From positions 124,001-188,000 of the forward strand of contig JAPOWQ010000053.1 of the NCBI GenBank assembly GCA_026707585.1: a DNA stretch of 64,000 bases. The letters are read 5' to 3'. The notes beneath the pieces were generated by a model. The model had not been told where the DNA came from and did not search any database. It saw only the letters and a program-made list of their open reading frames with translations. The stretch is from Chloroflexota bacterium (GTDB taxonomy: Bacteria; Chloroflexota; UBA11872). The translations under genes were made by a program, and so were the position numbers. Shown here piece after piece: positions 57,252 to 64,000 of the stretch. Positions within the stretch are counted from its first letter, which is position 1. Each line of letters starts with the position of its first letter.

Positions 57252-58259
57252 GTGCCAACTACCACGTCCCAGGTCGTGTTCCTCGAAGGCGGGAACGTCG
57301 CGATCGAGAATGTGGAGATTCCCGATCCGGCGCCGAACCAGATCCTGGTGCGCTCGACCCGCTCACTGATCAGCGCGGGGACGGAACTGAACATCCTGGA
57401 ACTGTCCGCCACGGGACGTGGGGAGCCCGGGTACTCGATGGTGGGTGAGGTAGCCAAGGTTGGCAGGGCGGTCGAGGGGTACGCGGAAGGCGACCGCGTG
57501 TTGACGTACCTGAAGCACCAGGGCGCGGGGCTCGTCACGATCGACCCGAATCTGCCGGACGAGGCCACGTATGCCGGGCTCATACCGGACGACGTCAGCG
57601 ACGAGGACGCGAGCTTCGTGGTGCTGGGTGACGTGGCGCTGCACGGCGTTCGGCGGGCGGGGCCGGGGCTGGGCGACTCGGTGGCGGTGTTCGGTCAAGG
57701 CGGCCTGGGGCAGATGGTGACGCAGTTTGCGCGGATGGCCGGCGCGTATCCGGTGGTTGCGGTCGACCTGCTGGACGAGCGGCTGGAACTGGCTCGCTGG
57801 TCGGGGGCGACGCATACGGTCAACGCTCAGCGCGAGGATGCCGTGGCGGCAGTGCAGGACATCACCGGCGGCGGGGCGCGGGTGGTGTTCATGGTCACGC
57901 GCACGCCCAAGATCCTGCCGGACTGCATGCGGGCGGCGGCGGCGGGCGGCACCGTGTCGATGACCGGCAGCCCGCCGGGGACGGTGGAGATTGGCCTGCA
58001 AGTGGAACTGCTGCGCAAGGAGCTCTCGATCATCGGCACGTACCAGTCGATGTACCCGCGCGAGCCGTACCACATGTTCCAGTGGACGCGGGCAGCCAAC
58101 CGGCAGTACATCCTGGACGCGATGGCGCGCGGGGAGTTTCGGGTCGACCGCTTGATTTCGCACCGCGAGCCGTACACGAAGGCCGGCGACCTGTATGAAA
58201 TGATCAAGCGCGGCCCGGCTGGCTGGCTATCGATCATCCTGCACTGGGACCCAGCCTAG
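57252..58259 (+). CDS. medium-chain (MDR) dehydrogenase
   Basis: 335 residues from GTG 57252. The N-terminal GroES-like part has SLISAGTELNILE and GYSMVGEVAKVG. The Rossmann motif is VAVFGQGGLGQMV near residue 135, followed by AVDLLDERLELARWSGA. The usual zinc-binding cysteines are absent, so it may be a zinc-independent MDR acting on a sugar or secondary alcohol. The last 25 residues (TKAGDLYEMIKRGPAGWLSIILHW, in short MIKRGPAGW) are duplicated as a relic at 59061-59150. Confidence 0.83.
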   Translation: MPTTTSQVVFLEGGNVAIENVEIPDPAPNQILVRSTRSLISAGTELNILELSATGRGEPGYSMVGEVAKVGRAVEGYAEGDRVLTYLKHQGAGLVTIDPNLPDEATYAGLIPDDVSDEDASFVVLGDVALHGVRRAGPGLGDSVAVFGQGGLGQMVTQFARMAGAYPVVAVDLLDERLELARWSGATHTVNAQREDAVAAVQDITGGGARVVFMVTRTPKILPDCMRAAAAGGTVSMTGSPPGTVEIGLQVELLRKELSIIGTYQSMYPREPYHMFQWTRAANRQYILDAMARGEFRVDRLISHREPYTKAGDLYEMIKRGPAGWLSIILHWDPA

Positions 58260-58343: not shown

Positions 58344-59018
58344 ATGGGACCAAACTCGGTAAATAAGCTCGAGGCCCTGGGCCTGGTTGTGGGCCCGGTG
58401 CTGGCGTTGATCTTCTTCGCGATCGAGCCGGGGGGAATGTTCGTCCAGCCGGCGGACTCGACCGACCCCGCCGCGACGATTACCGCCGTGGCGTCAAACC
58501 CGGGTGTTGCTCGGATTACGGCGCTCATGGTCCCGCTGGGCCTGATCCTGATGCTTTACGGGTTGTCCGGCATGAGTCGAGTCATGCGGCCAGACACCAT
58601 GGCAGCCGCCTGGTCGCGGCTGGGCATCCTGTTTATGAACGTGGGGGCCTTCGGCTGGATTCTTACCTCGGGGCTGACCTACATCCTGACCAGGACGCAG
58701 CTGGACGCGGCGCAGGGGCTTGAGTCGGCTATCCCGATCTACATGGTGGATTCGGGGATGGGCATGTTGTCGAGCATGGCCGTCGCGTCTGGATTCCTGG
58801 CCTTCAACCTTGGTCTGTCGGCCATCTACCCTCCGGGAATCCTCAGGATCACGGCCCTGGCAATTGCAGCCGTCTCGGTCATCTGCCTGGTTGCGGTCAT
58901 CATCGGAAATTCCGTTCCGGACCGGACCATGATCACGGTGTCCAGGATCTGCTACTTCCCCTGGGTGGCCTGGAGCGTCGTGCTTGGCGTGCGGTTTCTG
59001 AAGGGACGCAGTCTCTAG
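58344..59018 (+). CDS. six-helix membrane protein of unknown function
   Basis: 224 residues with about six hydrophobic helices. GLVVGPVLALIFFAIEPGG starts it, followed by LMVPLGLILMLYGLSGMSR, LGILFMNVGAFGWILTSGL, LSSMAVASGFLAFNLGLSA and LAIAAVSVICLVAVIIG. I recognise no family. ATG 58344 is used. It may be a small permease or a sensor. Confidence 0.6.
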   Translation: MGPNSVNKLEALGLVVGPVLALIFFAIEPGGMFVQPADSTDPAATITAVASNPGVARITALMVPLGLILMLYGLSGMSRVMRPDTMAAAWSRLGILFMNVGAFGWILTSGLTYILTRTQLDAAQGLESAIPIYMVDSGMGMLSSMAVASGFLAFNLGLSAIYPPGILRITALAIAAVSVICLVAVIIGNSVPDRTMITVSRICYFPWVAWSVVLGVRFLKGRSL

Positions 59019-59060: not shown

Positions 59061-59150
59061 ATGCATGCGAACGCCACCGACCTTTGTGCCATGATTCGGC
59101 GCGGTCCGGCCGGGTGGCCGTCGAACCTTCTGCATTGGGCTAGCGCGTAA
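59061..59150 (+). pseudogene. C-terminal relic of an MDR dehydrogenase
   Basis: The frame reads ANATDLCAMIRRGPAGW PSNLLHW then ASA and stop at 59148. It parallels residues about 311-335 of the gene at 57252 (AGDLYEMIKRGPAGW LSIILHW DPA). Only the last 28 codons remain. Its TAA overlaps the ribosome site of the next gene, so a second dehydrogenase copy was probably lost here. Confidence 0.7.
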
Positions 59151-59156
59151 GGAGGT
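59149..59156 (+). promoter_or_regulatory. strong Shine-Dalgarno of the selenoprotein gene
   Basis: AAGGAGGT, the full complement to the 16S tail, sits five bases before GTG 59162. It shows that ribosomes start here although a TGA follows after 11 codons. Confidence 0.8.
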
Positions 59157-59161
59157 CTCCG

Positions 59162-59518
59162 GTGGCGTTGCCGACGTTCTATTTCAAGAGCACCTGAACG
59201 AGTTGCCGGAAGGCCCGTGCGGCCTTGAACGCGACCGGGATGGACTATGAGCCGCGCGACTATGCGCGCAAGCCGCTGACCGACGACGACATTCGGGCGA
59301 TTGCCGGACCGCATGCGCTGCGGGAGGTCATGAACCCGCGCAGCCCGTCGTTCCGCAAGCTGGGGATCGAACGGGACTCGATCGACGACGCCCAGGCGCT
59401 GGCGTTGATGCTGGAGAACCAGAACCTGGTGCGGCGGCCCACGCTGGCCGCCGGCGACGTTCGGGTCTTTGGATTCAACGCGGACGCGTACGAGGAACTG
59501 GCCGGCGGCGAGGCATAG
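59162..59518 (+). CDS. putative selenocysteine-containing ArsC/Spx-like protein (TGA at codon 12)
   Basis: 118 residues if the TGA at 59195-59197 is read as selenocysteine. The product would start VALPTFYFKSTUTSCRKARAA (U = TGA; give as FKST-U-TSCRKARA). ArsC and Spx relatives have CTSCRKARAWL here, so U replaces the first Cys of CxxC (U12, C15). The rest fits the family: DYEPRDYARKPLTDDDI, RSPSFRKLGI, LMLENQNLVRRPT and FGFNADAYEEL. A stem-loop follows at 59210. GTG 59162 has a perfect ribosome site. If TGA stops, a start at 59225 leaves a protein with no active site. The role may be thiol redox or arsenate reduction. No selABD genes are in view. Confidence 0.8.
59206..59238 (+). promoter_or_regulatory. 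SECIS-like stem-loop
   Basis: AAGGCC (59210-59215) pairs perfectly with GGCCTT (59221-59226) around a five-base loop CGTGC. A lower CCGG/CCGG pair (59206-59209 with 59235-59238) can close it below an internal loop. The loop opens 18 bases after the TGA and has G as its second base. That is the position and loop type expected of a bacterial SECIS, recalled from published rules. Confidence 0.55.
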
Positions 59519-60388: not shown

Positions 60389-61144
60389 TTACCGGCGACC
60401 GGGAAAGTCGTCCCTGCCTACCACCGGGTACGTCTTTTCCGCGGTGAGCGGCGTGGGATGCCTGGCCAGATCGCCGGAGGCCGTGCGGTTGCGCAGCAGG
60501 TGGATGGCCAGCAGGGTGTAGAGGCCGTCTTCCGAGCTCCGGCGGCCGCCCAGTTCGAAGTATTTGGGCGACATGATGGACATGTCCTCCAGGGGAATGT
60601 CGGTGGTGGTGCGTTCCTGCTGGCGGAAGCGGCCGGCGAATACCTCGCAGATCATGGCGTTGCCGCTGGGCATGCGGGCGCGACCGTAGGCGCGGCACAC
60701 GAACGGGCGCACCGGGTAAACCTCGCAACGATTATCGGGCCCGAGCATGGGACAGCGGGTGGACTCGGTGCGGAACCCCTGGCCGACGGCGCGCACGAAC
60801 GCCTTTGGCTGCTTGTTGCGCATCTTGAGCCAGCGGCTGAGCGGATTGCCGTATTGCTGTATCTGGTCGGTGACGCGCTTGTAGATCGCGAGGCGCTGCT
60901 CCTTCGTCAGGTTCTCGCGCATCCAGTCGTGAATCAGTGCCCACTCCTGCTCGCCGGCCAACACCTGGTGCATACAGCAGCGCGCGCAGCCTTTCTGGCA
61001 CTCGAGGATCGGGTTGTCGCGCACGACGACCTCGGACCAGCCTTCCATGGCGTCGTACAGCTCGGGGAGGCTGCCGGCCGACTCGGCCATGCGTGAATAG
61101 AACGCATGCAAGTCGACGGTCTCGGGCGAGGGCTTTTGGGCCAA
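60389..61144 (-). CDS. YkgJ-family cysteine cluster protein
   Basis: 251 residues. CQKGCARCCMHQVL near residue 50 and RCPMLGPDNRCEVYPVRPFVCRAYG near residue 135 (in short RCEVYPVRPFVCRAYG) are the two halves of the Fe-S or Zn-binding YkgJ motif. The function is unknown. ATG 61144 is used. It stands alone, facing rraA across the hairpin. Confidence 0.85.
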   Translation of the reverse strand: MAQKPSPETVDLHAFYSRMAESAGSLPELYDAMEGWSEVVVRDNPILECQKGCARCCMHQVLAGEQEWALIHDWMRENLTKEQRLAIYKRVTDQIQQYGNPLSRWLKMRNKQPKAFVRAVGQGFRTESTRCPMLGPDNRCEVYPVRPFVCRAYGRARMPSGNAMICEVFAGRFRQQERTTTDIPLEDMSIMSPKYFELGGRRSSEDGLYTLLAIHLLRNRTASGDLARHPTPLTAEKTYPVVGRDDFPGRR

Positions 61145-62232: not shown

Positions 62233-62356
62233 GTTTCCCGGCAACGGGCTATCTTCCCACCGGGTTGCCCCGGCAGTATTGTCGCTGCTGACGAGCTTAA
62301 CGACTGTGTTCGGGATGGGAACAGGTGTGGCCTCGTCGCTCGAGTCACCGGGAAAC
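62233..62356 (-). rRNA. 5S ribosomal RNA
   Basis: The minus strand opens GTTTCCCGG and closes CCGGGAAAC, a nine-base end helix. Between them lie CCACACCTGTTCCCATCC, CCGAACACAGTCGTTAAGC and GGTGGGAAGATAG, the conserved 5S elements. Ends may be off by a few bases. Confidence 0.93.
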
Positions 62357-62402
62357 CGAACTCCGGAAGGGTACGCAAAGCTGCAGTGTTGCCGGCCTAA
62401 CG

Positions 62403-64000
<1,598 letters not shown>

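Follow-up and report, generated by a model that had tools for sequence, protein, structure and literature searches.

A Sec-containing arsenate reductase with a UxxS motif is known from Sargasso Sea data (PMC1088965), and an 'Arsenate reductase 2', in which the motif is UxxC, was reported in 2008 from 42 GOS sequences (cd03032; PMC2398784). The ArsC-like UxxC family is also listed in two reviews, in one of them as 'arsenate reductase-like protein' (COG1393; PMC9312934) and in the other with the NCBIfam model NF041106 (ArsC_rel_Se_1, 'ArsC family (seleno)protein') assigned to it (PMC13188914). An earlier note on the DNA analyzed here, made from its letters alone, had mentioned reports of Sec-containing ArsC-like proteins; such proteins are indeed already catalogued, with a UxxC motif (PMC2398784, PMC9312934, PMC13188914). 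ArsC-like UxxC selenoproteins are a known kind of protein, and an uncharacterized one.

The window, by which we mean the whole 64,000-nucleotide stretch of Chloroflexota DNA that was analyzed, contains a gene at 59162-59518 that we predict with high confidence to belong to this kind: its in-frame UGA is very probably read as Sec with the aid of SelB and a downstream hairpin, and its product would be a Sec-x-x-Cys redox protein of the ArsC/Spx group. The window protein shares with the GOS 'Arsenate reductase 2' the ArsC superfamily, Sec as the first residue of UxxC and the existence of Cys homologues; the GOS family comes from marine reads, is uncharacterized, and its 42 sequences may or may not include the Chloroflexota subgroup described here. 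With NF041106 it shares the superfamily, the position of Sec and a UTSC-type motif. A relative from the Planctomycetes (L052) is a member of that model (138.7 bits, cut-off 85), whereas the window protein, with 36.6 bits, falls outside it, as do the tested relatives from the Chloroflexota (17 to 51 bits).

The gene and its signals are as follows:

59149-59156, plus strand: Shine-Dalgarno site AAGGAGGT, five bases before the GTG start
59162-59518, plus strand: predicted selenoprotein gene, ArsC/Spx-like, with a GTG start, 118 residues, Sec12 (UTSC) and a TAG stop at 59516-59518
59195-59197, plus strand: in-frame TGA, the predicted Sec codon, aligned with the leading Cys of CTSC (C10 in B. subtilis Spx, C12 in E. 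coli ArsC)
59225-59518, plus strand: ORF expected from a standard gene caller in place of the full gene, with a TTG start and 97 aa, the active site missing

From the GTG, the frame runs through 11 sense codons to the TGA and through 106 further sense codons to the TAG; on re-reading, this layout and the ribosome site proved to be exactly as the earlier note had given them. The upstream (T)AAGGAGG is kept in close members of the genus. Without recoding, the longest and only ordinary ORF of the frame is the one that begins at TTG 59225, as predicted in the note, which had expected a mis-called ORF near that position. The read-through protein matches the Pfam ArsC family (PF03960) over residues 7-112, spanning the TGA, with 61.2 bits against a cut-off of 24, while the part after the TGA alone reaches 48.3 bits. 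Third-position GC content (GC3) is coding-like on both sides of the TGA (0.91 and 0.87). This is the sole such case among 17 candidates in the window, defined as in-frame TGAs that have an open start, lie two or three codons from a Cys and are followed by 50 or more codons, so that the frame is more than a chance occurrence. The same search by motif and GC3 yielded no further convincing selenoprotein genes in the window.

The host genome (3.92 Mb in 75 contigs, a draft that is 95.6% complete) encodes selA (508 bits), selB (332 bits), selD (370 bits) and a tRNA-Sec with the anticodon UCA (71 bits; ARAGORN agrees), which are the four components by whose presence the earlier note had proposed to check its reading. 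The selD gene (L018 1501-2427, on contig C49 of the same genome) is a selenoprotein gene too, with an in-frame TGA in the context AHGAG-U-ACK (GAGUACK motif); this TGA sits where Sec-type SelD has Sec. Two similar Cys-rich proteins with a CxxGCxxCC motif, YkgJ-like by eye, were also observed. One (window 60389-61144, minus strand) is convergent to an RraA-like gene beside the selenoprotein gene, and the other (L001 3381-4103, minus strand) lies directly upstream of selB.

An alternative is that a suppressor tRNA or an altered genetic code lets UGA be read as Trp, Gly or Cys, with no selenium involved; insertion of Cys would be chemically fitting, as homologues carry Cys at this column. Against such a reading, TGA closes 21 of the 47 long coding-like ORFs of the window and is therefore an ordinary stop in an unchanged genetic code, and a canonical tRNA-Sec, selA, selB and a Sec-type selD are all present in the genome. 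Homologues from genomes in which the Sec machinery was not found, and the hairpin behind the TGA, also bear on this alternative and are described below.

Homologues support the reading of the TGA as a Sec codon. In a first sample of 101 related genomes, a match was found in 26, and 23 of these contain exactly one internal stop, which is always TGA. A search of 400 Chloroflexota genomes gave a match in 58, of which 39 have one internal TGA and none a TAA or TAG. Reading of the codons places the TGAs of the homologues at the first position of UxxC. Two further genomes, G247 and G397 (L090, L091), were found by hand to have TGA at the column, bringing the total to 41 Sec genomes. The homology search had counted both as free of stops, its match having begun just after the TGA, and upstream of the match we observed the motifs UGSC and UGTC, accompanied by a hairpin that pairs; matches that start just behind the TGA can thus be miscounted as non-Sec. 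A clear Cys occupies the column in five matches (genomes G030, G038, G204, G244 and G196; rows L043, L045, L074, L094 and L095), as would be expected from the earlier note, which had placed the TGA at the first Cys of CTSC. Matches outside the Sec and Cys sets either leave the motif uncovered or belong to more distant proteins that lack it.

Could the gene be a pseudogene, or the TGA a sequencing error, with a Cys codon mutated or misread? A single base separates TGA from TGC or TGT, and the window comes from a draft assembly. However, at least 41 separate assemblies have TGA at this column, two of which (G002 and G346) are in one or two contigs. Close relatives keep the frame intact, free of the disabling changes for which the earlier note had suggested looking, and a comparison of 10 genomes of the genus gives a pN/pS of 0.00 for the part before the TGA, where only six codons could be compared, and of 0.17 for the part after it, values that indicate purifying selection on both sides. 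The synonymous sites of the hairpin are, in addition, frozen (see below). The 41 genomes with TGA refute a pseudogene or an error, to which we assign a practically negligible probability.

selA is present with a high score in all 41 Sec genomes, and both selB and tRNA-Sec were found in each of the 29 that were tested. Presence of selA is associated with the Sec form (39 of 39 versus 14 of 19; Fisher p 0.0025, kinship ignored); because selA already occurs in 320 of the 400 genomes of the sample, this co-occurrence is consistent with the Sec reading rather than strong evidence alone. We regard genome G204 as more telling. Its gene (L074, 1501-1830) has the Cys form, while relatives in its own family (G046, G083) bear Sec, and a search for selA, selB and tRNA-Sec in this genome (80% complete) found none of them. 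Likewise, G196 has a Cys codon at the column, and no match to tRNA-Sec, selB or selA was found there. That both genomes carry a Cys codon in place of the TGA argues against a selenium-free reading of UGA. A tree calculated after masking of the Sec/Cys column places the genes of G030/G038 and of G204, all of the Cys form, among Sec forms, a placement that fits changes from Sec to Cys; the deep branches are poorly supported. This tree rejects a single Sec clade, from which we do not claim separate origins of the Sec forms, the protein being short and its deep branches poorly resolved. The selenoprotein reading of the earlier note is thus supported by the Sec machinery, the Cys homologues and the intact frame in relatives.

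Directly behind the TGA lies a potential insertion signal:

59199-59237, plus strand: bacterial SECIS-like hairpin, with a lower stem, an upper stem AAGGCC (59210-59215)/GGCCUU (59221-59226) and the apical loop CGUGC (59216-59220)

The upper stem begins 12 nt behind the TGA, and the element conforms to all published bSECIS constraints (loop 5 nt, CGU, 6 bp, 18 nt; as in PMC13188914). The folding energy is -17.8 kcal/mol; judged from the sequence alone, the minimum-energy fold is mildly unusual (z -1.6), a weak test that we supplemented with synonymous-codon shuffles and covariation. An Rfam search at the hairpin returned no known RNA family, and to our knowledge Rfam has no general model of bacterial SECIS elements.

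Across 16 genomes of the genus and family, a single codon is used at four of five hairpin codons versus two of 18 elsewhere (Fisher p 0.008), the comparison being confined to codons with at least four synonyms and an invariant residue. All 102 stem cells in the window's family are paired, versus 67 expected from synonymous shuffles, which treat the sequences as independent, so that significance within this family is inflated. One relative, L036, has two silent, compensatory changes (AAG to AAA and GCC to GCT), by which one G-C pair becomes A-U; this double change aside, the hairpin of the family varies hardly at all at synonymous sites. Outside the family, the distance between UGA and stem is about four bases greater, and the stem is made of other sequences that still pair. 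In 23 Sec genes of other families, 152 of 184 cells of this shifted stem are paired, versus 97 (SD 4.9) in synonymous-codon shuffles; 27 cells are changed on both sides, versus 11 in column shuffles, and pairing drops to 31-57% when the partners are slid. We consider this diverse set a better test of the hairpin than the window's own family. The five Cys genes have 23 of 40 cells paired versus 18.6 expected (SD 2.2), and in L074 of G204 the position of the stem is partly decayed (5 of 8 pairs). Pairing at the common stem position is poor in five distant Sec rows (L038, L039, L082, L087 and L093). In its conservation and covariation the hairpin behaves like a SECIS element. This behavior is a further point against decoding of UGA as another amino acid, which we consider highly improbable.

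We modeled the structure of the window protein from 15 aligned homologues (mean pLDDT 92). Structurally it comes closest to Spx, YffB and ArsC-family proteins (TM 0.66-0.82), in agreement with a profile search in which Spx comes first. Sec12 aligns with Cys10 of Spx and Cys12 of ArsC, and Cys15 with Cys13 of Spx; the ArsC reference sequence used in this alignment is identical to 1i9d, and that of Spx agrees with the profile-search alignments over the stretch that they show. The YffB/ArsC-family reductase (PDB 1rw1, NF008107) is similar in length and fold (TM 0.77), but the window protein differs by its Sec-x-x-Cys active site and scores 48 bits against a cut-off of 121.

The alignment of Sec12 with ArsC Cys12 raises the possibility that the protein is a glutaredoxin-dependent arsenate reductase with Sec as its catalytic residue. 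It passes the Pfam ArsC cut-off, and its RRP motif contains the equivalent of Arg94. The catalytic set of ArsC, which we take to be Cys (or Sec) with Arg60, Arg94 and Arg107, is however represented by only the catalytic residue and one of the three arginines, the positions equivalent to Arg60 and Arg107 being occupied by other residues. The motif is UxxC, with a second Cys, where ArsC has CxxS and its reported Sec form UxxS, and no arsenic-resistance genes are present among the neighbors examined. With a score far below the cut-off of the arsenate reductase model (TIGR00014; 30.7 bits versus 106) and two of the three catalytic arginines missing, the protein is no classical arsenate reductase, and a Sec-based ArsC is an unlikely reading.

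A second possibility is a regulator of the Spx/MgsR type (TIGR01617, NF002459), which would bind the alpha subunit of RNA polymerase and use a selenenylsulfide as a redox switch. Spx is the best match in both sequence and fold, the Spx/MgsR model TIGR01617 is missed narrowly (73.6 versus 75.05 bits), and the window protein keeps both CxxC positions, with Sec for the first Cys, as well as the arginines equivalent to R60 and R92. On the other hand, the dedicated Spx models are missed by about 70 to 120 bits. Gly52 of Spx, which is reported to be essential for contact with the C-terminal domain of the alpha subunit (PMC2801614), is replaced by Ala in the window protein and by Ala, Ser or Pro or Val in aligned relatives. 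The loop before this position is two residues shorter, K62 is not conserved, and the protein lacks the C-terminal extension. We therefore consider a regulator of this type quite unlikely. An Spx-like regulator of the Chloroflexota whose contact with RNA polymerase is governed by a selenenylsulfide, that is, a selenium-based redox switch, is very unlikely; we are not aware of any description of a transcription regulator that senses through a Sec residue.

The description 'ArsC/Spx-like' in the earlier note accordingly holds for fold and descent and does not extend to class, the protein scoring too low for the models of true arsenate reductases as well as for those of true Spx regulators. The window protein is probably a Sec-x-x-Cys oxidoreductase of the ArsC/Spx fold, of the selenol/thiol type. 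We infer that selenocysteine is inserted at the UGA at 59195 by SelB and Sec-tRNA(UCA), under the direction of the hairpin 12 nt behind it. The product would be a thioredoxin-fold protein of 118 residues whose active site is Sec-x-x-Cys. Its fold, its conserved Cys and the existence of homologues with Cys lead us to infer a redox step in which, most likely, the selenolate of Sec12 attacks an oxidized substrate (a disulfide, sulfenic acid or similar), Cys15 resolves the intermediate through a selenenylsulfide, and thioredoxin or a low-molecular thiol could then reduce the selenenylsulfide.

The neighborhood upstream of the gene includes the following:

57252-58259, plus strand: zinc-type (MDR) dehydrogenase gene, directly upstream of the selenoprotein gene in several relatives
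58344-59018: gene for a 224-aa membrane-type protein, between the dehydrogenase and selenoprotein genes in the window
59068-59150, plus strand: residual 3' end of an ADH gene, the ancestral neighbor, closing with a TAA

In several members of the genus and in its sister genus, the selenoprotein gene directly follows the zinc-type dehydrogenase gene, whose stop adjoins or overlaps the Shine-Dalgarno site. In the window, it is the TAA closing the ADH remnant (TAAGGAGG) that overlaps AAGGAGGT. The intervening 224-aa protein has no match in Pfam or NCBIfam. It looks like an insertion accompanied by a duplication of the dehydrogenase end, because three members of the genus with no match to its gene (L025, L026 and L029) have the dehydrogenase and selenoprotein genes adjacent to each other. 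A plain blastn comparison of the end of the window's dehydrogenase gene with the region before the selenoprotein gene found nothing; the remnant at 59068-59150 is diverged, and visible only through the relatives. This arrangement suggests an old two-gene operon of dehydrogenase and selenoprotein that was later interrupted. Close by, the window contains a 5S rRNA gene and the 3' part of a 23S rRNA gene (62236-64000, minus strand).

New in these results are a well-supported Chloroflexota subgroup that lies outside the current NCBIfam model, a putative SECIS element whose stem occurs in two placements, and a Cys form from a genome in which no Sec machinery was detected. Among the Chloroflexota sampled, Sec is the commoner state in this subgroup (41 Sec versus 5 Cys). 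Because the subgroup fails the current NCBIfam selenoprotein model, pipelines that rely on that model are likely to report a truncated ORF that lacks the active site. Having both Sec and Cys forms, the subgroup provides natural pairs for asking what selenium adds to an active site of the ArsC/Spx type.
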